Virus record (IMG/VR): IMGVR_UViG_3300045918_000228 | Span: 1 to 38,126 of that record | DNA length: 38,126 nucleotides | Source of the DNA: a virus | Strand: one strand, 5' to 3' | Part shown: positions 840 through 30,273 of the stretch, piece by piece | Numbering within the stretch: position 1 is the stretch's first letter | Layout of the letters: each line of letters begins with the position of its first letter | Translations under genes and position numbers: made by a program | The notes under the pieces: model-generated | Database searches by the model: none | The model's input: only the letters and a program-made list of their open reading frames with translations | What the model was told of the DNA's origin: nothing

Positions 840-856
840 TCTAGGAGGGCTGAACT

Positions 857-2446: not shown

Positions 2447-2459
2447 GAGGAGAAGAAAA

Positions 2460-3575: not shown

Positions 3576-3595
3576 TTCATAGCAGGGCTGACGAC

Positions 3596-4060: not shown

Positions 4061-4064
4061 CTTT

Positions 4065-4946: not shown

Positions 4947-4949
4947 GTC

Positions 4950-7190: not shown

Positions 7191-7196
7191 TGAGAC

Positions 7197-7535: not shown

Positions 7536-7545
7536 GAGAGGTATT

Positions 7546-12012: not shown

Positions 12013-12031
12013 CTAACGAAGGGCTGACGAA

Positions 12032-12259: not shown

Positions 12260-12437
12260 ACAAGTTAGCTCACCCCCAGCAGAATACGCAACCAAGTTCA
12301 GGCAGAATCAGCCTGACCGTGGCGTTGCTGGAAGCCGGGGCGCTGACGTGCCTCCGCCGGTTGTGACGCGCCACATCATCGGCGCGACCGGCAAGCCTGA
12401 AGCATCAATTCTTCCTGGATTCGGGGTGAAAAAATGA
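12246..12437 (+). CDS. Small basic protein of unknown function
   Basis: 63 residues starting at ATG 12246, chosen because GGAG lies 7 bases upstream; it overlaps the end of the membrane protein gene. Pro-, Gly- and Arg-rich, lacking long hydrophobic segments, so possibly unstructured until bound. The C-terminal end overlaps the next gene by 4 bases. Probably a minor virion protein, on context only. Confidence 0.55.
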   Translation: MFKPKQVSSPPAEYATKFRQNQPDRGVAGSRGADVPPPVVTRHIIGATGKPEASILPGFGVKK

Positions 12438-12736
12438 GATACCTATTTATTTTACTGGCATTCTGTGCAACCGTATCTTTTGGTTCGGTGGGTAGCATTC
12501 CAATCTCCGGTAACTCGGTAACACCGATGACCCAAGGCTATTATTGCCTACCTGCTACCCCTACAGTGCCCGTGGCTCCGTTTATTGCTCCTACGCTAGT
12601 GCAACCTACATCAAACCCTACCACAACGCTTGAAATGACAGATGGCACGTATTATTACGTGATTACCTTCACGACCGGAACCGGGATGATAACTTCCCTA
12701 CCTTCCTGCCCGGTAAGGTACTCCACTCTACAGTAA
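12434..12736 (+). CDS. Small exported protein with Sec signal peptide
   Basis: 100 residues. The N-terminus MRYLFILLAFCATVSFGS looks like a Sec signal peptide, with cleavage expected near residue 17-18. The mature part is Pro/Thr-rich with two Cys (near residues 38 and 92) that could form a disulphide. It is the first of four consecutive genes that begin with export-type leaders (12434, 12746, 12843, 14773), which is unusual in a tail-fibre region. Function unknown. Confidence 0.6.
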   Translation: MRYLFILLAFCATVSFGSVGSIPISGNSVTPMTQGYYCLPATPTVPVAPFIAPTLVQPTSNPTTTLEMTDGTYYYVITFTTGTGMITSLPSCPVRYSTLQ

Positions 12737-12745
12737 GGTGACGAC

Positions 12746-12832
12746 ATGACCATTAAGCGAATTGTTCAGTATTTGGTTTTTGTAACGCTCTTCTTGTCAT
12801 CCTGTCCAGTTCGCTATACTACAAAACAATAA
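12746..12832 (+). CDS. Very short lipoprotein-like peptide
   Basis: 28 residues: MTIKRIVQYLVFVTLFLSSC followed by PVRYTTKQ. The hydrophobic stretch ending LFLSSC fits a lipobox with the Cys at residue 20, leaving a mature lipopeptide of about 9 residues. The start follows the previous gene by 9 bases, and the gene ends 10 bases before the next start, with AAGGAGAG between. It resembles entericidin-like or Rz1-like small lipoproteins in length only. Confidence 0.5.
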   Translation: MTIKRIVQYLVFVTLFLSSCPVRYTTKQ

Positions 12833-12842
12833 GGAGAGTAAT

Positions 12843-19365: not shown

Positions 19366-19434
19366 GCCCAATACCAGAATATACACATACCTGACTAATC
19401 GTTTATTGGGACAGGTGTATAAAGTACGTTAGGG
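19366..19434 (+). other. attC-like site 0 (weak left arm)
   Basis: Right core GTTAGGG at 19428, with the TAA stop of the adjoining gene inside it. Left core is GCCCAAT (19366), one base from consensus RYYYAAC. Inner arms TATACACATACCTG and CAGGTGTATA pair with a bulge. 69 bases, a normal attC length. This is the left edge of the recognisable array, and it may be the original entry point rather than a full attC. Confidence 0.45.
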
Positions 19435-19659
19435 GGCTTCGGTAACGTTAACACTAAATTCTTCCCCGTTCTTTCCAGCGTTGTAGGCTTCCATCATAAA
19501 AGACGATACCGCTTTGCACGAAACAAGATCACGTCCAATTATCGCGTCTTCTGGGCATTCGCAAAGTGCATTTACATAAAGGCGCGGCTTTCCATCAATT
19601 GCCATCTCCTGTGTTTCATAATCATTGCAATCTGTACCTACCTTAATTTCAATTATCAT
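19429..19659 (-). CDS. Cassette 1 gene, hypothetical protein
   Basis: 76 residues, small globular alpha/beta composition (IIEIKVGTDCNDYETQEMAI). The start is preceded by GAGGTGAA. The last codons read GAA GCC CCC TAA, with TAA lying inside the GTTAGGG core of the site at 19428. No family recognised. It is a single-gene cassette between attC-like sites 0 and A. Confidence 0.65.
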   Translation of the reverse strand: MIIEIKVGTDCNDYETQEMAIDGKPRLYVNALCECPEDAIIGRDLVSCKAVSSFMMEAYNAGKNGEEFSVNVTEAP

Positions 19660-19683
19660 AGTTCACCTCTTCGTTGTTAAAAT

Positions 19684-19746
19684 GCCTAACCCTACGCTCA
19701 AGCGGGACTGCGCAAAAGCGCGCAGCCCCTTAGCTACACGTTATAC
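19684..19746 (+). other. attC-like site A
   Basis: 63 bases. Left core GCCTAAC (19684-19690), right core GTTATAC (19740-19746). Between them lie CGCTCAAGCGGGACTGCGC and GCGCAGCCCC, which pair with an unpaired A in the left arm (GGG-A-CTGCGC against GCGCAG-CCC) and an AAAAGC loop. The extra base in the left arm is the usual attC mark that sets orientation, and it puts the site on the + strand. Its arms are nearly identical to those of sites D and L. Confidence 0.85.
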
Positions 19747-19913
19747 GCCTCAGGAGGCCTACCGCACTCCGCTGCTTTACGTGACCATATCCATGCGTGC
19801 CGAGCAATTTCTACTTCTCGCTCACTGAACACATCACGAAAACATAGACCATTCCTGTAAACCGCCGTCATGTATTGCTCAAAACCATCAATTTCTTTTT
19901 TCTCGTCACACAT
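19734..19913 (-). CDS. Cassette 2 second gene, small hypothetical protein
   Basis: 59 residues from ATG 19913, with GAGGTGAG just upstream. Mixed alpha-helical composition: CDEKKEIDGFEQYMTAVYRN, then FSEREVEIARHAWIWSRKAA. It ends in ...AYNV with TAG at 19734-19736; the last three residues and the stop are encoded by the right end of attC site A. It follows the 34-residue membrane peptide gene in the same cassette. The family is not recognised. Confidence 0.65.
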   Translation of the reverse strand: MCDEKKEIDGFEQYMTAVYRNGLCFRDVFSEREVEIARHAWIWSRKAAECGRPPEAYNV

Positions 19914-19928
19914 AGCTCACCTCATGAG

Positions 19929-20033
19929 TCACTTGCGAGATGGAGGGTTAATCGTCACGTACACAAGCCCAGCAACGATCACCATCCCACACACCATTCC
20001 AGTCGCAAAAATATGAATATCGCCCATACCCAT
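19929..20033 (-). CDS. Cassette 2 first gene, single-span membrane peptide
   Basis: 34 residues: MGMGDIHIFATGMVCGMVIV followed by AGLVYVTINPPSRK. One membrane helix with a short basic tail. GGAG lies 6 bases before ATG 20033; a second in-frame ATG is at 20027. The leader TTTTGGAGAAGGG is shared with the gene starting at 20321. Function unknown. Confidence 0.55.
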   Translation of the reverse strand: MGMGDIHIFATGMVCGMVIVAGLVYVTINPPSRK

Positions 20034-20050
20034 TCCCTTCTCCAAAAGAC

Positions 20051-20106
20051 GTATAACCCTACAATGAACCAGACCGCCGAAAGCGGCCTGTAACTCTTAA
20101 ATCTTT
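20051..20106 (+). other. attC-like site B (right core decayed)
   Basis: Left core GTATAAC (20051-20057), exactly complementary to the cassette's left boundary GTTATAC at 19740. The inner arms CAGACCGC and GCGGCCTG pair around CGAAA with a mismatch. The right part TAACTC matches sites E and I, but the expected GTTRRRY is replaced by AATCTTT, so this end should be inactive. Confidence 0.6.
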
Positions 20107-20321
20107 TCAGCGCGGCGGCTGGTTATTTCCACGTTGTGCGCCTTCGGCTTTAGCCCTAGCTCATCAGGTTCTATATAGAACACCGGGGCCCTGAATCCAC
20201 ACTCGCACCAAACGCCATAGGTGTTTTCATAGCCTTCCGGCCCTTTCAACTCGTGCCCGCAATCTTTTTCTATGTGGGCATAAGGGCATTCGTATTGCGA
20301 ATAATCTGCTCTGTTTTTCAT
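20097..20321 (-). CDS. Cassette 3 gene, small zinc-ribbon-like protein
   Basis: 74 residues from ATG 20321 (GGAG 5 bases upstream); a longer frame would need GTG at 20342 inside attC site C. Cys and His in SQYECPYAHIEKDCGHELKG and VWCECGFRAPVF suggest one zinc site, as in Lar-like restriction-alleviation and related small phage proteins. That relation is a guess from layout. The stop lies in the decayed right end of attC site B. Confidence 0.6.
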   Translation of the reverse strand: MKNRADYSQYECPYAHIEKDCGHELKGPEGYENTYGVWCECGFRAPVFYIEPDELGLKPKAHNVEITSRRAEKI

Positions 20322-20338
20322 CCCTTCTCCAAAAAGTC

Positions 20339-20407
20339 GCACAACCCACGCTTCGAGCGGGACTGCCGCGAAGCAGCCCGCGTCAGCCCCTCAACTTAAC
20401 GTTGTAA
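20339..20407 (+). other. attC-like site C
   Basis: 69 bases. Left core GCACAAC (20339-20345), right core GTTGTAA (20401-20407). Inner arms CGAGCGGGACTGC and CAGCCCCTCAA carry the extra A in the left arm. Its left part is nearly identical to that of site G. The right core matches the complement of the next site's left core (GTACAAC) at 6 of 7 bases. Confidence 0.8.
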
Positions 20408-20414
20408 CCCCATA

Positions 20415-20831
20415 TCAAAGTGCCTCGCGCGCCCTCATGCGCACTTCAGTTTTATCGTCAAGATACGGGGAGTAATCTTTCTTTTTTGTCCCCGTCATGT
20501 TCGCCCAATACTCCGCACGTTCTGCCCAGTGCTTTTCACATTTAGCGCGCTGAATATCGGTAAGTTCGTCGCTTGGCTCAGGGACGATTCTCACGATACC
20601 AAGAGCCTTAAAGTTCGCAGTTTTTTCATAAAGCCGCGCAATCTCTTCTTTTGCGAAGCCAAGTGCGCCGTAATATCGCTTTTCTACCGTTTTTCCTTCT
20701 GCGCTCATTAGTCGCCGGTTATTCTCATGCACAAGATTGTCCATGTATACCCAGTGCGGCTCGTTGTGGCATATACATTCACACCCTTTTTGCAGCTTTA
20801 TCATAGTTCCGTCTGGTAGTTCGCCTAGCAT
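20415..20831 (-). CDS. Cassette 4 gene, hypothetical protein
   Basis: 138 residues. ATG 20831 is preceded by GGGGGAA. The N-terminal part has the Cys/His cluster GCECICHNEPHW, possibly metal binding; the C-terminal part is helical and charged. Its start codon overlaps the stop of a 32-codon frame that begins inside attC site D (20825-20923), so it may be translationally coupled to that frame. No family recognised. Confidence 0.65.
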   Translation of the reverse strand: MLGELPDGTMIKLQKGCECICHNEPHWVYMDNLVHENNRRLMSAEGKTVEKRYYGALGFAKEEIARLYEKTANFKALGIVRIVPEPSDELTDIQRAKCEKHWAERAEYWANMTGTKKKDYSPYLDDKTEVRMRAREAL

Positions 20832-20923
20832 AATTCCCCCGCACTGTGGTACAACCCTACGCTCAAGCGGGACTGCGCGCCAGCGTGGTTGTTTCCAATT
20901 TCGTTCTTCGCTTCCATGCTCAT
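20825..20923 (-). CDS. Small ORF running out of the attC D loop into the cassette 4 gene
   Basis: 32 residues: MSMEAKNEIGNNHAGAQSRL plus SVGLYHSAGELC. AAGGAG lies upstream of its two ATG codons, in the loop of attC site D. The frame crosses the left arm of the site and ends at TAG in ATGCTAG, overlapping the start of the 20831 gene. A similar frame leaves attC site G (23146-23226). It may be a leader peptide that keeps ribosomes moving through the attC stem, or simply an open frame. Confidence 0.35.
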   Translation of the reverse strand: MSMEAKNEIGNNHAGAQSRLSVGLYHSAGELC

Positions 20924-20974
20924 CACTCCTTCAAAGTTTTGTGATGCGCGCAGCCCCTTAGCTACACGTTAGCC
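20849..20974 (+). other. attC-like site D (long type)
   Basis: 126 bases, a length like Vibrio repeats. Left core GTACAAC (20849), right core GTTAGCC (20968-20974). Left arm CGCTCAAGCGGGACTGCGCG pairs with GCGCGCAGCCCCTTAGC, again with an extra A. The roughly 70-base loop contains an AAGGAG ribosome binding site and ATG on the - strand. Confidence 0.85.
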
Positions 20975-21162
20975 GTCATGTTGGCATAACCCGCTTTCCT
21001 AAACTTGTACATTTCAAAACCAGCTTCGTAGCCTATCTGGTACGCTTCCCCGCATTCTGGGTCGCCATGCGGTGTTTTTCTCAGGTCTAGCCCGTCATTT
21101 TGCAACCCGTGTCCGTATCCAGATTCGTAGCTGTCACAAATTACATATATTCTGCTTGGCAT
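20962..21162 (-). CDS. Cassette 5 gene, hypothetical protein
   Basis: 66 residues from ATG 21162, supported by AGGA 5 bases upstream; an upstream in-frame GTG is less likely. Sequence features: PSRIYVICDSYESGYGHGLQ near the start and a Gly/Tyr-rich middle. It ends ...TANV with TAG at 20962-20964, supplied by attC site D. No family recognised. Confidence 0.65.
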   Translation of the reverse strand: MPSRIYVICDSYESGYGHGLQNDGLDLRKTPHGDPECGEAYQIGYEAGFEMYKFRKAGYANMTANV

Positions 21163-21189
21163 TTTTTTCCTCACTTCGTAGTAAAAAAC

Positions 21190-21249
21190 GGCTAACCTGC
21201 CGTTCGAGTCGGACGCGATGAAGCCGCGCCGCTCAACTCTACGTTATGC
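21190..21249 (+). other. attC-like site E
   Basis: 60 bases. Left core GGCTAAC (21190-21196) is exactly complementary to the cassette's left boundary GTTAGCC (20968). Right core GTTATGC (21243-21249). Arms GAG-T-CGG-A-CGCG and CGCG-CCG-CTC pair with two unpaired bases in the left arm and an ATGAAGC loop, a textbook attC layout. Confidence 0.88.
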
Positions 21250-21792
21250 GTCTCGCCCAAGTAAGCGGTATTTCGTGTCTGTATCACCGGCCAGCCATAC
21301 CGTCCAGTGAACCTCCATTGTTGGTGCGCCGCCACGTTCGCCGCCCATGAAGTCGGGTCGCCACGTCAGCGGCAACACATAGGCCGGAGGATGTTCGCTA
21401 AACAATGCGGCTCTTTTCTTCGCGTGCCAGTATTGAGACTTCAAAACCATCGCAACCGTCCCGGCGCACGTCAGCGCGTGGCGGATGAATTGCTCACTCA
21501 AAGCAAAAGGCGGGTTCGTGATTACCGCATCACAAGTCCGCATCCTGTCCATGAAGCTCCACCCGCCTTCGCCATACCCAGTTTGCCGTAAGTCGCTTGC
21601 GATCACGTCATGCCCGTACTGTTTCAAAACCTCTGCCATTGCTCCGTCTCCGCAAGCTGGCTCCCATATTCGGCACGGATCCAGATTCAAAAACCGCATC
21701 AGCGCGTGCGTCACGTCTGGTGGTGTTGGGTAAAAATCTAATTCTCTGCGCTTGTTGTCCGTGCTGCTGTTCGCTAAATTCAAGGCTTTCAT
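21244..21792 (-). CDS. Adenine-specific DNA methyltransferase (cassette 6)
   Basis: 182 residues. It carries the short phage-type N6-adenine methyltransferase signature: DFYPTPPDVTHALM near residue 20, the AdoMet-binding motif IWEPACGDGAMAEVL near 43, and the catalytic motif DAVITNPPF near 88. It would methylate adenine in phage or host DNA, likely protecting the phage from restriction or serving as an orphan methylase. Start ATG 21792 follows AAGGGAAG. The stop TAA lies within the GTTATGC core of attC site E. It is a single-gene cassette. Confidence 0.88.
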   Translation of the reverse strand: MKALNLANSSTDNKRRELDFYPTPPDVTHALMRFLNLDPCRIWEPACGDGAMAEVLKQYGHDVIASDLRQTGYGEGGWSFMDRMRTCDAVITNPPFALSEQFIRHALTCAGTVAMVLKSQYWHAKKRAALFSEHPPAYVLPLTWRPDFMGGERGGAPTMEVHWTVWLAGDTDTKYRLLGRDA

Positions 21793-21808
21793 GGCTTCCC
21801 TTAAGGAC

Positions 21809-21913
21809 GTATAACTTTACGGTCAAGTCCGACAAACAACAGCGGGCTTGAGTTCTTTACTTTGTTCACGGTTCGGTTGCCGCTGTTGTTTGCGGCTTAC
21901 CTCCACGTTGTGC
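21809..21913 (+). other. attC-like site F (long type)
   Basis: 105 bases. Left core GTATAAC (21809-21815), right core GTTGTGC (21907-21913). A perfect 13-bp pair, CAAACAACAGCGG (21833-21845) and CCGCTGTTGTTTG (21880-21892), forms the inner stem. Outer arms TCAAGTCCGA and GCGGCTTAC resemble those of classical resistance-cassette attC sites. Confidence 0.85.
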
Positions 21914-21949
21914 GTCAAAATCCGCCATGCTGTTGCTGCCACTGCTGGA

Positions 21950-22342
21950 TTACCCATGTTGATTCTGCCTTTGGTCTTCAACACGCTTAATAAACTGGCA
22001 GTTCATGCAAAGTATTTGATATTCTTCCGGCGTATAAGCCGATTTCGCTTTTCTGTATACGCCTCGCTCTCCAAGCGACTTTCTTTCATCACTGCCATTG
22101 TTTAACCGATGATCCAAGGTTAACGCCCTCTTGTCAGAAAACCCGCAAATAGAACAAACATGCCCGTAAATTTCAAATAACTTTTCCCGCTCTTTTGCTT
22201 TTGCTTTGCGAGATTGCGCTGCATACTTTTCAGGGTTTTCATGTCTAAGTCTTTGCATAACCACGCGCTTTTGTTCTCTGGCTTTCTCTAAGTTTCGCGC
22301 ATACCAATCAGCATAATGCTTTTGTGCTTTTGTCTTTTCCAT
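21950..22342 (-). CDS. HNH-type endonuclease-like protein (cassette 7)
   Basis: 130 residues. The N-terminal 60 residues are a basic helix rich in Lys and Arg; the C-terminal part has the HNH/zinc layout GHVCSICGFSDKRALTLDHR, NNG, then ILCMNCQFIKR, with CxxC, DH, N and CxxC in order. It may nick or cut DNA, or bind it without cutting. ATG 22342 sits in a perfect 10-bp inverted repeat (22341-22371). It shares cassette 7 with the cytosine methyltransferase, so a restriction-like pairing is possible but unproven. Confidence 0.8.
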   Translation of the reverse strand: MEKTKAQKHYADWYARNLEKAREQKRVVMQRLRHENPEKYAAQSRKAKAKEREKLFEIYGHVCSICGFSDKRALTLDHRLNNGSDERKSLGERGVYRKAKSAYTPEEYQILCMNCQFIKRVEDQRQNQHG

Positions 22343-23138
22343 TGGAAACTCTCTTTAACAAAGTTTCCAATTGTAGCATATTAACCCGCTTCCACTCGCT
22401 AAAACTTTTCGGACAGCAATTTGAATGCGTAGGCGGCACACAAAGGCACCTGTCCATTGCCAATGGCGTGGTGTCTGTCCAGTGCATGGGCCAGCCGAGA
22501 AGATACCACTCGCTCCAAACCGGATTCAGAGACCCACTGCAAAGTTTCTTCCTCATCTCTACGCCCACAATCTTGTCGAGGTAATCCTTCGCTCTCTTCC
22601 CCCCACCTATCCCCACCGCACCGCCCTGCCCCTTCTTCCCCCGACTGCATGGGGTAGGCCACCAGCCAGAGTCTTTCTCGCTTGTGGGGAGCGGAAACGT
22701 GGTGCGCTCCCAACACACCCCACCGAGCATCATACCCCATCGCGGCAAGGTCACTGATGACCACGGCAAGTCCTCGCTGAACAAGGAGCGGGGAGTTTTC
22801 CACGAACACGAATCGAGGTCGTACCTCACCGACAATTCGCGCCATGTGGCTCCAAAGCCCGGAACTGCCGCCTTCAATTCCCGCGCCTTTCCCTGCAATG
22901 CTGATGTCTTGGCATGGGAATCCGCCGCTGATAACATCAATTCTTCCGCGCCACGGATTCCCGTCGAAGGTTTGCACGTCATCCCAGATGGGGAAGTGAG
23001 GCAACATTCCATCGCGCTGTCTGGCGAGTAGGATGTGCCTTGCGTAGGAATCAAACTCAACAGCGCATCTGGTGCGCCAGCCAAGCAAGTGTCCTCCCAA
23101 GATTCCGCCTCCTGCCCCTGCAAATAGTGCCAACTCAT
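22308..23138 (-). CDS. Second-frame protein overprinting the cytosine methyltransferase
   Basis: 276 residues in a frame shifted relative to the methyltransferase, starting 4 bases after its ATG. It covers the whole methyltransferase gene, runs 91 bases beyond its stop and overlaps the HNH gene start. Segments such as MSWHYLQGQEAESWEDTCLA, PRWGMMLGGVCWERTTFPLP and SGSLNPVWSEWYLLGWPMHW match, from memory, a family often annotated next to phage cytosine methyltransferases (LNPxWxEWLMGWPxxWTDL). Function unknown; it might complete or control the short methyltransferase. Confidence 0.6.
   Translation of the reverse strand: MSWHYLQGQEAESWEDTCLAGAPDALLSLIPTQGTSYSPDSAMECCLTSPSGMTCKPSTGIRGAEELMLSAADSHAKTSALQGKARELKAAVPGFGATWRELSVRYDLDSCSWKTPRSLFSEDLPWSSVTLPRWGMMLGGVCWERTTFPLPTSEKDSGWWPTPCSRGKKGQGGAVGIGGGKRAKDYLDKIVGVEMRKKLCSGSLNPVWSEWYLLGWPMHWTDTTPLAMDRCLCVPPTHSNCCPKSFSEWKRVNMLQLETLLKRVSNGKDKSTKALC
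22341..22371. promoter_or_regulatory. Inverted repeat over the HNH gene start
   Basis: ATTGGAAACT (22341-22350) and AGTTTCCAAT (22362-22371) are perfect 10-bp inverted repeats around an 11-base spacer. On the - strand the second arm contains the bases just before the HNH start and the ATG overlaps it. As RNA it would hide the start; as DNA it could be an operator. The second-frame gene also reads through it. Confidence 0.6.
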
Positions 23139-23142
23139 TCAT
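22399..23142 (-). CDS. dcm: C5 cytosine DNA methyltransferase (cassette 7)
   Basis: 247 residues. Motif I GAGGGILGG (8-16), catalytic motif IV SGGFPCQDIS with Cys77, motif VI FVENSP (usually ENV), motif VIII HKRERLW and motif X AIGNGQVP are all present in order. It methylates cytosine C5 in a specific DNA sequence. It is short for the family because the target-recognition region between motifs VIII and IX-X is reduced. GAGG precedes ATG 23142. The whole gene is overlapped by a second open frame. Confidence 0.9.
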   Translation of the reverse strand: MNELALFAGAGGGILGGHLLGWRTRCAVEFDSYARHILLARQRDGMLPHFPIWDDVQTFDGNPWRGRIDVISGGFPCQDISIAGKGAGIEGGSSGLWSHMARIVGEVRPRFVFVENSPLLVQRGLAVVISDLAAMGYDARWGVLGAHHVSAPHKRERLWLVAYPMQSGEEGAGRCGGDRWGEESEGLPRQDCGRRDEEETLQWVSESGLERVVSSRLAHALDRHHAIGNGQVPLCAAYAFKLLSEKF

Positions 23143-23145
23143 TCC

Positions 23146-23226
23146 TCACTCCGTAAAATTGACGCACAACCCACGCTTCGAGCGGGACTGCGCTTCATCG
23201 GTCTTCGTTTTGTTTTCAGCTTTCAT
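23146..23226 (-). CDS. Small ORF running out of the attC G loop into dcm
   Basis: 26 residues: MKAENKTKTDEAQSRSKRGL plus CVNFTE. It starts in the loop of attC site G, crosses the left arm and stops 3 bases before the methyltransferase ATG (TGAGGAATG). Its position, length and the AQSR segment parallel the ORF leaving site D. No good ribosome binding site is seen. Possibly a leader peptide. Confidence 0.3.
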   Translation of the reverse strand: MKAENKTKTDEAQSRSKRGLCVNFTE

Positions 23227-23255
23227 CGCCGCAGCCCCTCACTTTTACGTTAGGC
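23164..23255 (+). other. attC-like site G
   Basis: 92 bases. Left core GCACAAC (23164-23170), the exact complement of the cassette 7 left boundary GTTGTGC (21907). Right core GTTAGGC (23249-23255). Arms CGAGCGGGACTGCG and GCAGCCCCTC pair with an extra A on the left. Similar to site C in the left part. Confidence 0.87.
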
Positions 23256-23435
23256 AACTGTAGCCATGTCCCGCAGTTCACTAATGCGCGCAGCCAGCTT
23301 TTCAGCAGCTATAGACCATGCGCCTTCGGACGTATCACTTACGGCAACCCAGCTTTCCTTGCAATATGGTATGTACCCAGAGTGCAAGTTTACGACCACC
23401 CAATTCCCGTCTACTTCTACGCAGTCTAAAAACAT
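23250..23435 (-). CDS. Cassette 8 second gene, hypothetical protein
   Basis: 61 residues from ATG 23435, which has AGGAG 6 bases upstream; a longer frame to 23510 would overlap the upstream gene. Sequence features: FLDCVEVDGNWVVVNLHSGY then a helical C-terminal half (GAWSIAAEKLAARISELRDM). The TAA stop is inside the GTTAGGC core of attC site G, which makes the last residue Ala. No family recognised. Confidence 0.65.
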   Translation of the reverse strand: MFLDCVEVDGNWVVVNLHSGYIPYCKESWVAVSDTSEGAWSIAAEKLAARISELRDMATVA

Positions 23436-23460
23436 TTCCCGCTCCTTCTTTGGTTGCGCA

Positions 23461-23688
23461 CTACAGAGGCCATGCCCACACTTCCAGGCCACAGTTTTTG
23501 CAAAACTCATCGCAGTCGCCCATTTCTAGGCTACCGCTTACCATTTTTCGGCGATCATGTATCAAGCGCGCAGCTTTCCGCAAATCAATTACTTCATCGG
23601 CTAGCACTTGCATCACAGTCTCGACCTCTCCATGCCTTCCGGCGCGCTCTGTCGTCCGTGCTATTGATAGTGCAATTTCAATGTCCAT
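23461..23688 (-). CDS. Cassette 8 first gene, hypothetical protein
   Basis: 75 residues, GGAG 8 bases before ATG 23688. Mostly helical with basic patches (LRKAARLIHDRRKMV) and a C-terminal CDEFCKNCGLEVW segment with a CxxC pair that could bind metal. It lies 25 bases upstream of the second gene. Unknown function. Confidence 0.65.
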   Translation of the reverse strand: MDIEIALSIARTTERAGRHGEVETVMQVLADEVIDLRKAARLIHDRRKMVSGSLEMGDCDEFCKNCGLEVWAWPL

Positions 23689-23716
23689 GTTTGCATCTCC
23701 GTTGAAAATAAAACCA

Positions 23717-23774
23717 GCCTAACCTAACATTGCACTCGTACTACCTACGGCAGCCGGTGAATTAAACGTTAGCC
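23717..23774 (+). other. attC-like site H
   Basis: 58 bases. Left core GCCTAAC (23717-23723) is the exact complement of the cassette 8 left boundary GTTAGGC (23249). Right core GTTAGCC (23768-23774). The inner arms are less regular than in the other sites (TGCACTCGTA and AGCCGGTGAA), so folding should be checked. Confidence 0.75.
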
Positions 23775-23813
23775 ACCATGAACGAACTTATCGCGCACGG
23801 TGGCTTAAATCAA

Positions 23814-24116
23814 TTAAGCGGCGAGCTTCTCGCGCAGAAGATAACCCTCAAGCGCCCAAATCTTTTCTCGGGCGTTGGTGCGGGCAATCTTCCGTCCCAG
23901 TTCGACGTTGAAATTTTCCGGGCTTGCGGCGGCGCTTTCGCCCGTCACTGTGAAGCCGTTCTTCAATTTTAGGCAGCACACCGTCAGCGTTGTTTCGGGA
24001 AATACGTGGTAGTCCTCACCAACGATCACTGCGTCAATCTTTTCGGGCGAGAGCCTGGGAGCGTTCAGCCCTTTATCCTGAATTTCGGCTTCAATTGCTT
24101 GTTCGTCTTTGCTCAT
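23814..24116 (-). CDS. Gp49-like phage protein (cassette 9)
   Basis: 100 residues. The segments KGLNAPRLSPEKIDAVI, YHVFPETTLTVCCLKLKNGF, TVTGESAAASPENFNVELGR and KIWALEGYLL are the recognised layout of the Gp49 family of small phage proteins, whose function is unknown. AGGA lies 6 bases before ATG 24116. It is a single-gene cassette, with about 40 unused bases between its stop and attC site H. It is good evidence that typical phage genes, not bacterial ones, occupy the array. Confidence 0.85.
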   Translation of the reverse strand: MSKDEQAIEAEIQDKGLNAPRLSPEKIDAVIVGEDYHVFPETTLTVCCLKLKNGFTVTGESAAASPENFNVELGRKIARTNAREKIWALEGYLLREKLAA

Positions 24117-24153
24117 TTTGTTTCCTTTCTAGTGCCACCAATTAGAGGCTGGT

Positions 24154-24212
24154 GGCTAACCCGGCGTTCAACACGGACTCGCTAAAGCGAGCCGGTTAAC
24201 TCTACGTTAGGC
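24154..24212 (+). other. attC-like site I
   Basis: 59 bases. Left core GGCTAAC (24154-24160), exact complement of the cassette 9 boundary GTTAGCC (23768). Right core GTTAGGC (24206-24212). The stem CGG-A-CTCGC / GCGAG-CCG closes a TAAA loop with one unpaired A on the left, and GTTCAAC and GGTTAACTC flank it as in classical attC sites. A 7-bp inverted repeat (GCCACCA 24134, TGGTGGC 24150) overlaps its left edge. Confidence 0.9.
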
Positions 24213-24401
24213 ACATCCGCGTTGCTCATTAAAACGATCCTCTAACTCTTCTTCAGTCATGCCTTCTGCGCACTCTTTGCATGTTGCATATCCGTGCATA
24301 CAGTTCTCACAAATCTCTTTACCGCACTCAATGCAGTGGAATATCCAAGTTTTCAACCAGCTTGCCTTGTGGCAGTTATCGCAAATATATGCAGTTTTCA
24401 T
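24207..24401 (-). CDS. Small zinc-ribbon protein (cassette 10)
   Basis: 64 residues with four CxxC pairs or near pairs: YICDNCHKA, HCIECGKEICENC and ATCKECAEG, suggesting two zinc sites of treble-clef or zinc-ribbon type. The C-terminus is acidic. AAGGAG lies 11 bases before ATG 24401. Its TAA stop is inside the GTTAGGC core of attC site I, giving a last residue of Ala. Role unknown; such proteins often bind nucleic acid or host proteins. Confidence 0.7.
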   Translation of the reverse strand: MKTAYICDNCHKASWLKTWIFHCIECGKEICENCMHGYATCKECAEGMTEEELEDRFNEQRGCA

Positions 24402-24446
24402 GAGTTAAAAAACTCCTTCCAATGGTGGCAGCATCCTTGCGGAGGA

Positions 24447-24550
24447 AACCTAAGATATTGCGGTTCATACACGGTTGTTTGCTTGTTGCACGTCAGTCCG
24501 CACACATCTGCGCTTACGTTTCCTTTTGGGGTGTCTAAACTACGTTGGGC
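24447..24550 (+). other. attC-like site J (left part decayed)
   Basis: Right core GTTGGGC (24544-24550) follows TAAACTAC as in other sites, and its complement is exactly the left core of site K. The best left core is ACCTAAG (24447), 5 of 7 against the expected GCCTAAC. Inner arms are not convincing. About 104 bases if the left core is right. Confidence 0.45.
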
Positions 24551-24852
24551 GTCTTGCCCTTTGGCGCATTATCAGGAGCATCACGACATCCGCGCTTTAA
24601 TCCGATCAACCACTTTGTTATCTCGTCTGCTCGCCACCGGGTGTTCCTTTTGCCCATCTGTAGGGGAAGCGGGAAAGTCGGGTCATATGATGACTTTTCT
24701 TTGTTTAACATCCTGTAAATGCTTGAGCTGGATAGCTTCGTTATGGCAGAAACTTCTGGCAGCGTCAGCAATTCAAATGGTGGCAAATACGGCTTTTTCT
24801 GTGGGGTTTGTTTCCGCAGTTCCCGCATTCCGATTTCAACGTCATAATCCAT
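24535..24852 (-). CDS. AlpA-like helix-turn-helix regulator (cassette 11)
   Basis: 105 residues. Residues 26-85 match the AlpA/excisionase-type winged helix layout: LLTLPEVSAITKLSSSSIYR (recognition helix), then FPLPLQMGKRNTRWRADEIT and KWL. Family members bind DNA as small transcription factors or directionality factors. It could regulate the phage early operon. AAAGGAAAAG precedes ATG 24852. It ends ...TPNVV with TAG at 24535, and the last residues come from attC site J. Confidence 0.82.
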   Translation of the reverse strand: MDYDVEIGMRELRKQTPQKKPYLPPFELLTLPEVSAITKLSSSSIYRMLNKEKSSYDPTFPLPLQMGKRNTRWRADEITKWLIGLKRGCRDAPDNAPKGKTPNVV

Positions 24853-24875
24853 TTCTTTTCCTTTCTCCGATTCAC

Positions 24876-24997
24876 GCCCAACCCATGCATTCGAGAGGGA
24901 CTGGCCGTATACGTTCGCTTTTCGGCCTGTGGTTTATCAACTCTCAGGGCTACGTTCACGTTCGGTGACGGCCTGCCCCTCAATTTGAACGTTAGGG
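24876..24997 (+). other. attC-like site K (long type)
   Basis: 122 bases. Left core GCCCAAC (24876-24882), exact complement of the cassette 11 boundary GTTGGGC (24544). Right core GTTAGGG (24991-24997). Arms CGAGAGGGACTGGCCGT and ACGGCCTGCCCCTCAA pair with the extra A in the left arm, very like Vibrio-type repeats. Confidence 0.85.
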
Positions 24998-25329
24998 GTT
25001 AACAATTCGCGCATTTCTTTAAGTGTCGGAATCGCGGTTGTCTTTGGCATCATTGTATCGGTTGCCGTATACACAAGCACGACTGCGCCACGGTCTAATG
25101 CATATTCTGCTTCATCTTTTCGTGTTGTTATGTGTCTGTATTTACCAAAGTCGCACCACCATATTTGCTCTGGCGCTTCGTAGGTCGAAACCTCTAACCC
25201 GGCAGTCGAGTCGGACTCTCCGATCATGGCAATGCGCCGCTCTTCCTGCTCGCGGTGCGCAGCCAATGCCTCAAGCGCATCCTCTTTCCAGAGGCGTAGA
25301 GCAACCAGTTCTTTTTCAGCTTCAGTCAT
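24937..25329 (-). CDS. Cassette 12 gene with attC-encoded C-terminal tail
   Basis: 130 residues. The N-terminal third is helical (TEAEKELVALRLWKEDALEA); the middle is a mixed domain (IWWCDFGKYRHITTRKDEAE). The frame reads through the right core of attC site K without a stop, giving ...TPNV followed by about 16 residues (QIEGQAVTERERSPES) coded by the attC arm and loop. The other cassettes here stop at or before this point. AAGGAAG precedes ATG 25329. No family recognised. Confidence 0.65.
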   Translation of the reverse strand: MTEAEKELVALRLWKEDALEALAAHREQEERRIAMIGESDSTAGLEVSTYEAPEQIWWCDFGKYRHITTRKDEAEYALDRGAVVLVYTATDTMMPKTTAIPTLKEMRELLTPNVQIEGQAVTERERSPES

Positions 25330-25352
25330 AACTTCCTTTCAGTTCGCCAGTT

Positions 25353-25412
25353 GTCCAACCCTACGCTAAAGCGGGACTGCGCAAAAGCGCGCACCCTTGC
25401 AGCACGTTTGCG
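25353..25412 (+). other. attC-like site L (right core decayed)
   Basis: 60 bases. Left core GTCCAAC (25353-25359). Arms GCGGGACTGCGC and GCGCGCACCC around AAAA resemble those of site A, but the right core is GTTTGCG (25406-25412), off consensus in the fourth and later positions. As the rightmost site it marks the end of the array, where a dead site would be expected to persist. Confidence 0.65.
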
Positions 25413-25447
25413 GTACTCGTAAGCCGCGCTCTGTATTGCGCGCCAGC

Positions 25448-25717
25448 TTACCGAGAGCGCTTCCGTATCTCAGCAGCCAGGACTGAAAATTGCCATGCAA
25501 GAGACTCTAATTCCGTGCGGTCGTCTTGGTCATCTGTCGTCTCCAGTTTTACTGAGCATTTTTCGGCTCTCTCATCACATACCCGAGCGCACTCCTCGCG
25601 CTCTTCTGTTCTCACCATTTTTGCGAACATCTCAAAGTTAGGCGCGGAATCTTTGAACCATTCGTCTACTGCATGGCGGTTTTTAAATGCTAATTTTGCC
25701 ATTCCCATAGTTTTCAT
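25448..25717 (-). CDS. Hypothetical early protein
   Basis: 89 residues, helical and charged, with the segment FAKMVRTEEREECARVCDER in the middle (two Cys). AAGGTAA precedes ATG 25717. It is the first gene upstream of the attC array on the - strand and is not itself bounded by attC sites. No family recognised. Confidence 0.65.
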   Translation of the reverse strand: MKTMGMAKLAFKNRHAVDEWFKDSAPNFEMFAKMVRTEEREECARVCDERAEKCSVKLETTDDQDDRTELESLAWQFSVLAAEIRKRSR

Positions 25718-25719
25718 AA

Positions 25720-26067
25720 TTACCTTTCAGCTGTCAAAATATGTTCATTTTTTCTTTTCCATATTTTCCATATTTCATAGCATTTTGGACAGCGCACAGA
25801 GTCAACAGATTTACCTGTACGCCGCAATTCTGTCAGCGGTAATTGTGCTCTGCACGTTTTAACAACACACCGCCGTTGCCCCTTTATTGTTACCGCATTA
25901 CGAGTAATCGGCTGTTCTTTTTTAACTGGTTTTTTTATGGATTGGATACCTAATAGCATATCCGCTATGGTAGGTATATTTGGTATGTCCGATATTTTTC
26001 CGGTAGTCCAAATTTGTTTTGGTCTGTCGAGTGAAGATGCGTGACCGCACTTTATTATCGGTCGCAT
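25720..26067 (-). CDS. Hypothetical protein with C-terminal zinc ribbon
   Basis: 115 residues. Basic throughout. Cys residues in RRCVVKTCRA and VRCPKCYEIW near the C-terminus fit a four-Cys zinc ribbon, likely for DNA or RNA binding. Its start overlaps the end of rusA by 13 bases, so it is translationally linked to the resolvase. Function unknown. Confidence 0.65.
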   Translation of the reverse strand: MRPIIKCGHASSLDRPKQIWTTGKISDIPNIPTIADMLLGIQSIKKPVKKEQPITRNAVTIKGQRRCVVKTCRAQLPLTELRRTGKSVDSVRCPKCYEIWKIWKRKNEHILTAER

Positions 26068-26480
26068 AATTCCCTCACGGAGATTACCGCGCCTGATTTC
26101 TCGCTGTACCGCTTGCTGACTTCACAATCGACAACCTGTTTATCATCGTCAAAAATAACCCCATTGCAAGCGTCACAGACGGCTTTGAGCACGTTATCTA
26201 GGTCCGGCTTGGTTGTAGGGTATATTTGATAGTGCAACGCAGCTATGCGCTTTTTGTTGCTCCATGATGTTGGTGGCGTAACCAGTATCAGCAACTCCAT
26301 TTTCACCGCGCCAAGAATTGGCAAATTTTCTCCCATCGCTTCGGCAGCATACACCCTAACCAAATTTTCATAGTTGACGGTCTTTTCGGGCGTGTAGTGT
26401 CCGATAAATTTACCACGCATAACTGAGCGAGCCCGCCCTTTCCCGACTACGTCACCTGGTACTGTAAAAGTTATTTCCAT
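26055..26480 (-). CDS. rusA: RusA-family Holliday junction resolvase
   Basis: 141 residues. N-terminal FTVPGDVVGKGRARSV and the family core PTTKPDLDNVLKAVCDACNG followed by VIFDDDKQVV are clear RusA features, including the Asp cluster that binds metal for cleavage. The enzyme resolves Holliday junctions made during phage recombination and packaging. It belongs to the recombination block with the Sak4-like ATPase and exonuclease further upstream. Confidence 0.92.
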   Translation of the reverse strand: MEITFTVPGDVVGKGRARSVMRGKFIGHYTPEKTVNYENLVRVYAAEAMGENLPILGAVKMELLILVTPPTSWSNKKRIAALHYQIYPTTKPDLDNVLKAVCDACNGVIFDDDKQVVDCEVSKRYSEKSGAVISVRELCDR

Positions 26481-26487
26481 TATCTAT

Positions 26488-26658
26488 TCACCATTGCGCA
26501 CTCGCTACGCATAAATATTCCGCACATTTTGATACCTGATTTTTGCCTGACCTGTATTCCCATTCTGTCCCAAACCTGATCCGTTTCGCGCCGCATCCCC
26601 AAATAACAAACCCGTTAGGCGATATGCAGCGCCGATTCTGGCAGGTCGGGCAGATCAT
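26488..26658 (-). CDS. Small Cys-rich protein
   Basis: 56 residues from ATG 26658, which overlaps the stop of the upstream membrane protein gene (ATGA); a longer frame to 26796 would overlap that gene entirely. The N-terminus ICPTCQNRRCISPNGFVIWG with further Cys (WGCGA, KCAEYLC) suggests a zinc-binding fold. Function unknown. Confidence 0.6.
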   Translation of the reverse strand: MICPTCQNRRCISPNGFVIWGCGAKRIRFGTEWEYRSGKNQVSKCAEYLCVASAQW

Positions 26659-26813
26659 ATTATTTCGTCCCACGTAATCCTCACAGAATGCGGAAATGAA
26701 AACCCGTAGCTCATCCAGTGAGCCACACGCCATGCGTACATCACGATGCAAGCCACAATCAGCGCACCGGCAAAATATATCGCCAGCAATCCGCAAAAAA
26801 CAAGGTTATCCAT
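26655..26813 (-). CDS. Small single-span membrane protein
   Basis: 52 residues from ATG 26813, chosen because GGGAGG lies 5 bases upstream. One hydrophobic segment, about 4-26 (LVFCGLLAIYFAGALIVACI), is followed by a Trp-rich amphipathic tail. It overlaps the upstream and downstream genes by a few bases. Function unknown. Confidence 0.6.
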   Translation of the reverse strand: MDNLVFCGLLAIYFAGALIVACIVMYAWRVAHWMSYGFSFPHSVRITWDEII

Positions 26814-27051
26814 TTTTCCTCCCTGATACTTCGGCAATTTCGCAGATTGCCTGGTTAATGTAGCTCTGGCACTCGTCCAGCTTACACGCCGCCTCGCTTG
26901 CGTACACACCTGCGATGTATAGAGTCTGCGCAGGAAGCGATATTTCATCTCCTGGCGCATCCTCACTCAATTTCTCGCACCTGTCTCGCATGGCTTCCGC
27001 CAAAGCTCGCAGCTCGATCGCCGTAGATCGGTTAATTTCGTTGGTCGTCAT
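26806..27051 (-). CDS. Hypothetical helical protein
   Basis: 81 residues, predicted all-helical (TNEINRSTAIELRALAEAMR, then QTLYIAGVYASEAACKLDEC). It starts 2 bases after the upstream stop and overlaps the next start. No family recognised. Confidence 0.65.
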   Translation of the reverse strand: MTTNEINRSTAIELRALAEAMRDRCEKLSEDAPGDEISLPAQTLYIAGVYASEAACKLDECQSYINQAICEIAEVSGRKNG

Positions 27052-27053
27052 GA

Positions 27054-27257
27054 CTATTCAGCTTCAATTTCCGCTTGTCCGGTAGTCTCTACTTCTACGC
27101 CGGATTTTGTCAGGGCTATCAGGTCGCCTTGGGTTGCTACCGCCGCCAGCACGGTATCTTTCGCTACATGATTTATCGCTTGGCTTTTATTCGCCGCCTC
27201 AACCAGTCGTGTAGTTGCTCCAATTGTTACCGCGTAAATACGTTTCTTCGCTTCCAT
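27054..27257 (-). CDS. Small hypothetical protein
   Basis: 67 residues with GGAG 6 bases before ATG 27257. Layout: a short beta start (RIYAVTIGATTRLVEAANKS), a helical middle and a Glu/Thr-rich tail. It lies downstream of the repeated regulatory module at 27314-27356 and may be the first gene of a separate transcript. No family recognised. Confidence 0.65.
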   Translation of the reverse strand: MEAKKRIYAVTIGATTRLVEAANKSQAINHVAKDTVLAAVATQGDLIALTKSGVEVETTGQAEIEAE

Positions 27258-27313
27258 TTCGTTCTCCTTGGTTAAAAAACAGATTTCATTGTTTCAGGTA
27301 AATTTGATTCTGC

Positions 27314-27356
27314 ATATACCCCATTAGAGCTATATCGGAATACCCCAAATGGGTTA
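27314..27356. repeat. Repeated TACCCC module, copy 2
   Basis: ATATACCCCATTAGAGCTATAT (27314-27335, shown as ATATACCCCA plus TTAGAGCTATAT) and TACCCCAAATGGGTTA (27341-27356). The same two elements occur at 30667-30722 (copy 1), there 16 bases further apart. Both copies lie roughly 57-115 bases upstream of a - strand gene start, suggesting an operator or promoter module, although short peptides in one frame are also similar. Confidence 0.55.
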
Positions 27357-27599
27357 TATGCCAATCTCACGCCTCGGATTGATGAAAGCTCCTATCCTGA
27401 TAAATCGCGTCGCATGGAAGGCAAGAACCGTATCAAAATGTTTGCCATTGGCATGTAGATTACGCACCGCGCTAATTCCCTCGGTAAAATTAGGCATAAA
27501 ATCCTGATAGGCATTTACAACGCGCCACCGTCCCGACCTCCCCGCTAACGGGGTTTGGTTCGGGCAGTAAACAGCCCAGATTCTAAATTTCGCTGACAT
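27354..27599 (-). CDS. Hypothetical basic protein
   Basis: 81 residues, rich in aromatic and basic residues (KFRIWAVYCPNQTPLAGRSG; NAYQDFMPNFTEGISAVRNL). It overlaps the end of the upstream gene (27583) by 17 bases. The stop touches the TACCCC module. Function unknown. Confidence 0.65.
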   Translation of the reverse strand: MSAKFRIWAVYCPNQTPLAGRSGRWRVVNAYQDFMPNFTEGISAVRNLHANGKHFDTVLAFHATRFIRIGAFINPRREIGI

Positions 27600-27756
27600 T
27601 TTTTTCTCCTTGCGCCTCTTTCAGCGCCTCCAGTTCGTTGTAAGTTTCCGATGAAATTTTGAAATACCGGCGGATGCGATTTGCTTCAAGTAAATCTGAA
27701 ACAACGATTTCCACCATCCGGCCACCATCCTCCAAATCCAATTTAATTATTTGCAT
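27583..27756 (-). CDS. Small hypothetical protein
   Basis: 57 residues from ATG 27756 (AGAGGTG 4 bases upstream); a longer frame to 27837 lies inside the ATPase gene and is rejected. Beta start (IIKLDLEDGGRMVEIVVSDL) followed by a helical C-terminal half. It overlaps the end of the ATPase gene by 14 bases. Function unknown. Confidence 0.65.
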   Translation of the reverse strand: MQIIKLDLEDGGRMVEIVVSDLLEANRIRRYFKISSETYNELEALKEAQGEKNVSEI

Positions 27757-28711
27757 TTTGCACCTCTGATATTTTGGTTGATACCCATTCGCAAACGGCC
27801 TGAAATTTGTCTGCCGGAATTTTTGATACGCTGCCAAATCGCTTTACCAATTGCACCCTGATTGTTGGGTGCGTCTGGATTGTGTCGGTAATTTCTGTAA
27901 CCTGGTCGGTGGTAATGTAATCTACCTCTCCGGCTGTCTGTCTGGCTGGTGATGTCGCTGGCGGCACACCTCCTCGCGCCCACTCTGCAATCAACCTGCC
28001 CGATTCCTCGTTTACCTGCCGGTCCAGCGGAAACAGGGCGCGGTGCTGCTCCTGCAATTTAATCGGTTGCGGTATTCCCGGCCTGTCGGCGGTGAAAAGA
28101 AGGCTGGTTGTGAGTTCAAAGGGTAGGTTCTTATCGCAAATTGGAATCCATCCATCAAGACCGGTAAGAGATTGTTTGGCATGGATAACGGTTTTGCCGT
28201 TCTCTCGCACCATTTCAATTTTTTGCTCTGCTCGGAAGCATAGAATAACGTGGGCTTTGATGCGTAGCAGGCCATTCGTAAAGGCCTTTTGGTCAAGTTT
28301 AGGCTTAATCCATGCCGCCATCTTGCACCCCTCGCGTTTTTTCCAGTCGTCACCGGCCATTCGGTCAAGCTCGGATTCCTGCCAGTCCAGGACGCCTCCG
28401 TCACTACTCCACATATGCGATGCGCTATCAACCACGATCACCGGGTACCCTGCCGCGTCTGCCGCCTTGATAGCCTCTAAAAAATTAGTAGGCTTGAACG
28501 GTGCGTCTAGGTCGCCACAATCAAAACTGAATTGGTCGGCGTAGTGCCTGGCACGTCCGTTCTCGGTGTCTATCACGGCAAACGGTTTACCACCTGCCAG
28601 CCCGGAAGCAAGGCGCATGGCGGTAAAAGTTTTTCCGCTGCCAGTTCCGCCCACCAACCCGATTAAAAGCGGGACATTCTCGCGAACGGCTTTTTTAAAT
28701 TGGATTGTCAT
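27743..28711 (-). CDS. Sak4-like phage recombination ATPase
   Basis: 322 residues, RecA-core ATPase. Walker A GGTGSGKT at 21-28, Walker B-like VIVVDSASHM near 90, and a later sensor region HVILCFRAEQK. Such proteins (Sak4 or AAA_24 type) act in phage homologous recombination with an exonuclease and an SSB. The C-terminal third after about 250 is a separate helical extension. Its gene neighbour, 3 bases upstream, is the exonuclease, which fits a RecE-RecT-like module. Confidence 0.85.
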   Translation of the reverse strand: MTIQFKKAVRENVPLLIGLVGGTGSGKTFTAMRLASGLAGGKPFAVIDTENGRARHYADQFSFDCGDLDAPFKPTNFLEAIKAADAAGYPVIVVDSASHMWSSDGGVLDWQESELDRMAGDDWKKREGCKMAAWIKPKLDQKAFTNGLLRIKAHVILCFRAEQKIEMVRENGKTVIHAKQSLTGLDGWIPICDKNLPFELTTSLLFTADRPGIPQPIKLQEQHRALFPLDRQVNEESGRLIAEWARGGVPPATSPARQTAGEVDYITTDQVTEITDTIQTHPTIRVQLVKRFGSVSKIPADKFQAVCEWVSTKISEVQNANN

Positions 28712-28714
28712 TTT

Positions 28715-29731
28715 TTACCTCGCGTATTTGTTAATTTCTGGTTTCACGGTGCCGCCTAAAAAGTTTTCCTTGCTACCTGGCGCGTTTTTGTCCCAGTTCG
28801 CCCCGGCGCCCAATTTCGGTAGTGGCGTTTCAGCCTCCATCATTTCAGCCTCGGCCATGCTCCACGGGGTCGGGTCGGCGACGATCAGGCCCTTTTTCCA
28901 TCCCGGCCATTGGTCGGTAGCCAGTGCCTCGCGCCACAATGCCAGCGCCCGGCGTACCTTAATCTCTGCAACGGCCATCATTGCCGCGCTTGGGCGCACA
29001 AAAAAACAGTCGTATGGGTATGTGTCCTGCATCACGATAAGAAGAGGATCTGGCGTAATACCGGTCTCGGATTTTACGGCTATCGAGTAGTATGCCATCT
29101 GAAAATCATACCCCATCGGCTCGACCTGTTTACGTATAAACGAGTCAGGGCATAGGCAGCTAGTGGATTTAAAATCAGGCATCCATAAAAAATCATGGCT
29201 CAGGAAGTCCGGGCGGACTCGAACCATAACGCCCTCAACCTCGGTGATGATAGTTTGCTCCGGTAGCCCAAATTCCGGCGTGAGTCGCATTCCGCACAAG
29301 TCAGGCTCAGTCGCTACCGCCTCATACACGGCGCAGGCCATGCGCTCAATCTCTGCGTACTCGTCGGGCAGCATCGCTATCATGCCGCAGGATTCTATTT
29401 CCTCGCGTCGATTTTTGATTGATTTATTATTCCAACCGGATGCTGGTTTTCCCAGCGGCTCGGCTTTGGTCGGCTCGGTGCGGTATTCCTCCGGGTCAAC
29501 CTGTACGATGTCCGCCCCTCCCTCCAGCACCATCGAGTGCACAGCGCGGCCAAGCCGGAATTTATCGGCCTGCAATGGCGTGTACTTTGGATTAAGTCGC
29601 GGGTGATGCAGCCAAACATGATGCATATTACCCAGCAAAATGTCGCGCGCGAGGTGGCTGCTCAGTGTCGGCCCCATTCCGGGTACGCATAGGTCGGCGT
29701 GGTATTGTGCTGCCTGTATTTTTAAAATCAT
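28715..29731 (-). CDS. RecE/exonuclease VIII-like PDDEXK exonuclease
   Basis: 338 residues. PD-(D/E)XK nuclease pattern: [11 protein letters not shown] (near 62), [20 protein letters not shown] (Asp ... Asp-x-Lys near 170-188) and [12 protein letters not shown], the Q-x3-Y motif of the RecB-like family. It resects double-stranded DNA ends to make single strands for the neighbouring ATPase. Its start overlaps the RadC-like gene by 4 bases (ATGA), so the three genes form one operon. Confidence 0.88.
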
Positions 29732-30273
29732 ATCATCCCCCGTTCTGCAAAACTCAAAATTGGCGACATACCGGCCACGATAAAATAATCTAGTACGCGC
29801 ACATCCACCAGTGCCAGAGCCTGTTTCAGCGCATCTGTCAGCATTCGGTCGGACTGGCTCGGCTCAGACACGCCGGAAGGGTGATTATGGGCGAAGATCA
29901 CCGCCGCAGCGTTGTGGTGGAGGGCACGTTTTACGACTTCGCGCGGATACACGCTGGTTTGTGTCAACGTTCCGGTGAACATTTCTTCGTATTTTATCGC
30001 TCTGTGCTGTGCATCCAAAAAAACCACTGAAAACACCTCGTGCTCGAGTTGGCACATTTTCATCTGAAGAAATTCTCTACATGCGTTTGGCGAATTCATG
30101 ATGTCTGTATTTCCGCGATACAATCGTAATTCTAAAATTGCTATGGCGTCTCGAATTATTGCGTCACCGGCAGCGTCACCGGAAATTGAATTATCAACTA
30201 TGTAAGCTGGACTTGTTTCGTTTTTTGCTTTCATGATTTCGCCATTAAATTCAAATTCTTGTATTAAACTCAT
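29728..30273 (-). CDS. radC: RadC-like JAB-domain protein
   Basis: 181 residues. The RadC metal motif is complete: Glu near 78-80 ([12 protein letters not shown]), then [20 protein letters not shown] with His129, His131 and Asp142. The N-terminal helix-hairpin-helix part of long RadC proteins is absent, as in the short phage and plasmid form. Its biochemical role is not established; it is often found with recombination and anti-restriction genes. GGAG lies 9 bases before ATG 30273. Confidence 0.88.

Follow-up and report, generated by a model that had tools for sequence, protein, structure and literature searches.

We found that the attC array in the window, by which we mean the whole 38,126-nt stretch of phage DNA analysed here, has reversed polarity, with the genes on the - strand and the attCs on the + strand in all 11 of its cassettes. 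This inverted polarity, absent from the initial annotation, constitutes our main novelty. The window very likely holds an integron-type cassette array lacking an integrase of its own (a CALIN). This array of reversed polarity lies where a leftward phage early operon has its downstream end, and the integron integrase (IntI) is presumably provided in trans.

For the search of attC sites, we used a covariance model (R1, 20 base pairs) built from 32 attCs of bacterial genomes only, applied without filtering to the entire window. R1 returned 11 matches between 19684 and 25413 (5.7 kb), all on the + strand, with bit scores of 79, 68.6, 59.9, 47.9, 36, 35.9, 34.9, 31, 30.5, 21.1 and 20.1. The next match after these 11 reached 12.8 bits at 25192, the highest reverse-strand score within the array was 7.4 bits, and outside the array nothing in the whole window beat E = 2.8 with R1. 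About 13 sites had been proposed initially; R1 matched 11 of them and did not support those at 19366 and 24447 as attCs. The description of 10 sites as being of good quality was fair, with 9 of the 11 matches at E < 1e-5. A lack of covariance matches for the good sites had been named as a refutation, and the matches proved to be far above chance (best E 6e-20); these E-values rule out chance palindromes as the origin of the sites. The sites are as follows, with R1 scores.

19684..19747, + strand: attC S2, 79 bits, E 5.8e-20; core 1 base off many bacterial attCs
20051..20140, + strand: attC S3, long hairpin loop, 35.9 bits, E 8.4e-8
20339..20408, + strand: attC S4, 47.9 bits, E 3.4e-11; 53 consecutive bases equal to a Gallionella attC (L141)
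20849..20974, + strand: attC S5, long hairpin loop, 21.1 bits, E 0.0012, core 20862-20961
21190..21250, + strand: attC S6, 59.9 bits, E 1.4e-14; also in viral contig L227, together with its gene
21809..21914, + strand: attC S7, long hairpin loop, 30.5 bits, E 2.8e-6, core 21812-21910
23164..23256, + strand: attC S8, 34.9 bits, E 1.6e-7; left box pairs 12/12 with the S7 right box
23717..23775, + strand: attC S9, 36 bits, E 7.8e-8
24154..24213, + strand: attC S10, 68.6 bits, E 5.1e-17
24447..24550, + strand: S11, decayed attC, right box only, no R1 match; right box GTTGGGCGT pairs 9 bases with the S12 left box
24876..24998, + strand: attC S12, long hairpin loop, 20.1 bits, E 0.0024, core 24889-24988
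25353..25413, + strand: attC S13, right half partly decayed, 31 bits, E 2e-6

The attC layout described initially, with RYYYAAC (R'') on the left, GTTRRRY-like (R') on the right and complementary inner arms, was observed in the R1 matches and their folds together with one-sided extrahelical bases, so the criteria for attC sites are met. The extra unpaired A reported in the left arm was confirmed, along with an extra C; both occur in bacterial attCs, and they fix the strand of the window attCs. The CALIN criterion (two or more attCs in the space of a few kb, integrase absent nearby) is likewise met by 11 sites in 5.7 kb. Neither 19366 nor 24447 can be kept as a good attC in the absence of an R1 match; at 19366, the sole fitting element is the right box GTTAGG at 19428. 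The site at 24447 (S11) is most plausibly an attC in decay, whose retained right box pairs with the following site. Given the decay at S11 and S13, some of the array may no longer be active. Scanning against Rfam matched zero families.

The array occupies the distal part of the early operon, within which the initial annotation had correctly placed it. Its genes, and those upstream of it, are listed below.

19429..19659, - strand: cassette gene, phage protein of unknown function (phrog_19569; codon score 0.29 per codon)
20097..20342, - strand: cassette gene, unknown (strand by codon score)
20415..20831, - strand: cassette gene, unknown (codon score 0.22, sense reading -0.06)
20962..21174, - strand: cassette gene, unknown; cassette common to viral contig L227, 85.5% identity up to the crossover
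21244..21792, - strand: DNA methyltransferase, N6 type, cassette gene (phrog_799, E 3.7e-52)
21950..22342, - strand: HNH/endonuclease VII-like, gene 2 of a two-gene cassette (phrog_2255)
22399..23142, - strand: C-5 cytosine DNA methyltransferase, cassette gene (PF00145, E 3.8e-29)
23250..23688, - strand: cassette with two small overlapping genes, unknown (strand by codon score)
23814..24116, - strand: phage N4 gp49/Sf6 gp66 family, cassette gene (PF13876, E 1.7e-31)
24207..24401, - strand: small zinc/RING-like protein, cassette gene (PF14445, E 7.3e-5)
24535..24852, - strand: AlpA-type regulator, cassette gene (PF05930, E 1.6e-9)
24937..25329, - strand: cassette gene, unknown (codon score 0.23, sense reading -0.29)
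25448..30273, - strand: upstream part of the leftward early operon, with RusA, AAA ATPase, PDDEXK DUF3799 and RadC

Codon scores, trained on the genes of the window phage outside the cassettes, favoured the - reading in 11 of 11 cassettes, narrowly in the case of the C-5 methylase cassette. Since the scores of this cassette were near-even, its - strand was decided by homology, which also backs the - strand for the N6-type methylase, HNH, N4 gp49/Sf6 gp66 and AlpA genes. The usual, if not obligatory, cassette criterion that the gene runs in the direction of its attC is not met in the window. The location of all array genes on the - strand, antisense to the attCs, had received no mention in the initial annotation. 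A gp49-type gene, inside a cassette in the window phage, was located outside any array in a relative. Searching the window with TIGR02249 yielded no IntI, and no intI or attI remnant was visible; the criterion for a complete integron, namely intI and attI adjoining the array, is thus not met here and is met in the phage contig G055 and other phage contigs.

The orientation bias was also observed in other viral arrays. Gene strand was assigned by the longest ORF in both array sets, a rule which left about 40% of the viral cassettes undecided. Bacterial arrays with the same attC type contained 99 sense and 16 antisense cassettes (115 decided), whereas viral arrays contained 144 antisense and 23 sense (Fisher p = 6e-36 against the bacterial set, deduplicated); by contig, antisense:sense was 45:5 in viruses and 3:46 in bacteria. 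Pfam comparison matched 79 antisense viral proteins to 20 families, and 20 sense proteins to only one. The depositor-annotated genes of phage MW202573 are likewise antisense to its attCs. Shewanella phage M16-3 has a canonical array, phage TJE1 has a single weak attC match, and in L246, a phage contig, sense cassettes outnumber antisense ones, an exception for which we have no explanation. Large terminase was found in 21 of the 48 attC-bearing viral records, with only one terminase family searched.

Some phages were observed to encode IntI themselves. G055, identified as a phage contig by its terminase gpA, lambda-type portal and Mu-like head protein, carries between terminase and portal an IntI of 340 residues scoring 465 bits (cut-off 265). 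The array adjoins intI with its attCs in canonical orientation to it, and the methyltransferase gene of the first cassette is transcribed toward intI. Using the G055 IntI as query, we found relatives in 60 viral contigs, 35 of which have attCs on the expected side. The detectable arrays of IntI-bearing viral contigs are inverted, with cassettes pointing to intI: 67 cassettes were antisense and 8 sense, or 41 and 4 after deduplication with first cassettes left out. A lambda-type portal was present in 18 of the 39 IntI-bearing contigs checked, and in G101 a phage-type tyrosine integrase gene lies directly downstream of intI. In the IntI tree, 31 viral IntIs formed one branch that included none of the 29 sampled bacterial IntIs (SH-aLRT 92); the tree was made by a quick method with sampling seeded by the phage IntI, and a wider tree is needed to establish the clade. 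Related IntI occurred in 138 of 369 genomes of the class, of which only one exceeded 64% identity to the G055 IntI; this relative (74%) stands beside RdgC and phage Gp3-like genes and probably lies in a prophage.

We propose, by inference, that a phage operon acquired an integron whose intI ran in the direction of the operon. With intI so placed, the attCs would necessarily face against transcription, so that only cassettes with inverted genes would be expressed and kept. The fuller layout is that of other phages, in which the array sits beside their own intI and the cassettes are transcribed toward attI and intI; some phages, such as the window phage, may have lost intI or never had it. Read along the genes, each unit comprises a backwards attC as leader, the start codon, the gene and a stop at or near the crossover box. 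Such units probably entered as circles through the action of an integron integrase that cuts at G^TT, with both the enzyme and its recombination activity being inferred. Since the window phage has no IntI of its own, the enzyme would be supplied in trans, either by the host or by another (co-infecting) phage. Because the attC orientation is fixed and the gene must follow the phage operon, the phage cassette pool would be kept distinct from the bacterial one; the orientation bias is an observation, the selection involved is again an inference.

Operon transcription might be an additional cause of the inversion, a suggestion that remains tentative and, in our judgement, somewhat unlikely. The attC bottom strand is the one that IntI prefers, and transcription would expose the coding strand, which is the same strand, thereby promoting cassette exchange. 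The geometry of an inverted array always makes the bottom strand the coding one, and in published assays (PMC9892861) recombination of phage attCs was better with bottom than with top strands. However, no data here separate this idea from the simple need for co-transcription with intI and the phage operon.

The proposed insertion of circular cassettes makes a prediction about the boxes. A circular cassette inserted by IntI has two ends that are complementary to each other, so pairing is expected between the right box of one site and the left box of the site that follows, and not between the two boxes of a single site. In the window, neighbouring boxes matched at 5.1 of 7 positions, compared with 3.3 within sites and 3.4 after shuffling. 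Neighbouring-box matching was 5.25 in viral arrays (z = 25), 5.54 in bacterial arrays (z = 26) and 5.8 in intI-bearing viral arrays (z = 19). The window sites are real cassette junctions, with neighbour pairing as predicted by the insertion of circular cassettes by IntI.

Sharing of single cassettes was also observed. The window cassette at 20969-21243 is 85.5% identical to one in the viral contig L227, an identity that reaches, on its attC side, no further than the GTT of the G^TT crossover. Among otherwise unrelated viral contigs, 29 of 43 single-cassette matches had an end at most 20 bp from a crossover, against 6 expected; the 43 are not independent, as most pairs were counted in both directions. 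The window proteins had almost nothing in common with those of the first seven attC-bearing viral contigs, indicating that the arrays sit in unrelated phages. We found no close relative of the window phage with a different cassette set, and 15 whole terminase relatives all lacked attC. A further refutation named initially, ordinary repeats with no cassette exchange, is averted by unrelated phages sharing single cassettes whose ends fall at the crossover above chance. The proposed assembly by IntI-type recombination gains support from this sharing and from the pairing of neighbouring sites, with the recombination activity itself inferred.

There remains a small chance that we are dealing with structured repeats between genes, be they terminators, hairpins for RNA processing or homology islands, which spread through phages by homologous recombination and no longer involve an integrase. 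Such an origin would agree with the lack of IntI in the window phage, with the decay of several sites and with the weak terminators thought to be present in attC hairpins (PMC9892861), but it does not account for boxes that pair between neighbours and not within sites, nor for shared homology ending at G^TT, which exchange anywhere inside a repeat would not give. These two observations together argue against ordinary homologous recombination between repeats, and we retain the CALIN of reversed polarity as our reading of the window.

The bacterial relatives of these sites bear on the host. Taking a single genome from each species, we searched for the left half of the most frequent window site and obtained at least 120 stretches, many of them in Gallionellaceae, other Nitrosomonadales and Methylobacter. 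Whole sites were also near-identical to bacterial ones: the S2 core is 1 base off many, and S4 shares a 53-base run. Among genomes with matching stretches, 34 of 40 had an integron integrase above the family cut-off. A betaproteobacterial, Nitrosomonadales-like host can reasonably be inferred but is not shown. The near-identity to attCs of Gallionellaceae and relatives could also suggest that a host chromosomal integron stretch was captured whole by the phage as a mere vehicle, or that the contig is chimeric, but this is very improbable, as bacterial array genes lie on the attC strand and those of the window do not, the window genes are phage-type (gp49/gp66, AlpA, methyltransferases) and extend the phage operon, and none of the viral cassette proteins had a match among the fetched bacterial cassettes. 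Capture of a normal host array was rejected on account of genes that are both inverted and phage-type.

That attCs occur in phages was already known, as stated in the initial annotation. Qi et al. (2023, PMC9892861) described integrase-less clusters of attCs (CALINs) in virulent phages and in uncharacterised ones, complete integrons in a small number of temperate phages, and methyltransferase cargo, and IntI1 recombined 5 of the 6 phage attCs tested there. The window array is likewise an attC cluster without integrase and with methyltransferase cargo. In that study, same-direction cassettes were typical, the statement on cassette direction covering TJE1 and PH101, and inversion was unreported; here, genes antisense to attCs are the rule in many phages, including its MW202573, and a phage IntI clade is found in addition. 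Compared with the sedentary chromosomal integrons of Gallionellaceae, other Nitrosomonadales and Methylobacter, the attC sequence, structure and cassette-end pairing are the same, whereas their genes lie on the attC strand (99:16) and the cassette proteins differ. Inverted single cassettes do exist in bacterial arrays, as a minority (16 of 115 decided); in phages they are the rule and match the operon direction. The Treponema 'reverse integron' resembles the phage arrays in its unusual intI-cassette orientation, both running in one direction (PMC4909258, PMC3607928). In Treponema, however, intI points toward attI and the cassettes away, while in phages the cassettes point toward attI and intI and are antisense to attC; the Treponema-type criterion is not met, as the intI-bearing viral contigs have attCs upstream of intI on the opposite strand. 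Neither reversed polarity as a phage rule nor a phage IntI lineage turned up in the full-text literature, with preprints and most subscription papers outside the search.

Integrons are usually viewed as belonging to bacteria. We consider it likely that phages of environmental proteobacteria keep a reversed integron lineage of their own, with an IntI clade and a separate cassette pool, in which attI, at the downstream end of the operon, would be the entry point of new cassettes, transcription would proceed through the cassettes into intI, counter-defence genes would be rapidly exchanged between phages, and intI-less phages such as the window phage would share the pool. Across these phages, the cargo includes DNA methyltransferases, Mom, an Acb2/Tad1-domain protein and a PAPS-reductase-like protein, which suggests an exchangeable counter-defence kit, an inference made without the function of any protein having been measured. 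If true, the reversed integron owned by phages would act as machinery devoted to reassorting anti-defence genes. It would account for the clean exchange of single small genes among phages, and it would connect the phage and bacterial cassette pools. The origin of new cassettes, and the orientation of attC relative to transcription as a control of recombination, would then become testable.

A complete integron lies between terminase and portal genes on phage contig G055 (IMGVR_UViG_3300009031_000034); its first cassette gene encodes a methyltransferase, and the direction of transcription is toward intI. On a further contig, G101, an IntI gene adjoins a second integrase gene within one phage, and the pair is located downstream of an inverted cassette array.

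G055 (loci L296 and L297), 7039-10377: complete integron, IntI plus attC array
G101 (locus L429), 8918-13704: phage-type tyrosine integrase and IntI, adjoining genes

Among the 369 bacterial genomes searched for relatives of the G055 protein, a phage-type IntI (74% identity) was found only once, at L428 (G476:C17, 7702-9335). Its neighbours there are RdgC, phage Gp3-like genes and two attCs, and the locus is probably a prophage. Positions 68-5678 of KX853513 (Virus Rctr41k) contain an IntI-like gene, 'xerD', with 44.5% identity to phage IntI, into which ten small genes lead, all in the same direction. This gene layout is that of phage integrons with cassettes transcribed toward intI, and the attC model, a covariance model built from bacterial attCs, returned zero sites in this region.

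Within the window, a marginal attC-like left half (25192-25255, 12.8 bits) was observed inside the gene at 24937-25329. Since its left box pairs better with the right box of the attC at 24876-24998 than does the left box of the next site (25353-25413), this gene may have extended across a former cassette junction. Left of the first cassette, an inverted repeat (19375-19420) adjoins a GTTAGG box at 19428; this repeat may represent either a terminator or what is left of an attI end.

Regarding cargo, the 79 viral cassette proteins encoded antisense to their attCs include a protein with an Acb2/Tad1 domain and a DNA modification protein of the Mom family; each is of a kind known from phage counter-defence. 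The cassette gene of the N4 gp49/Sf6 gp66 family in the window has a relative (44% identity) adjoining the terminase of a related phage (G010, 35062-35421) and outside any attC array; thus, a phage gene is found both inside and outside a cassette.
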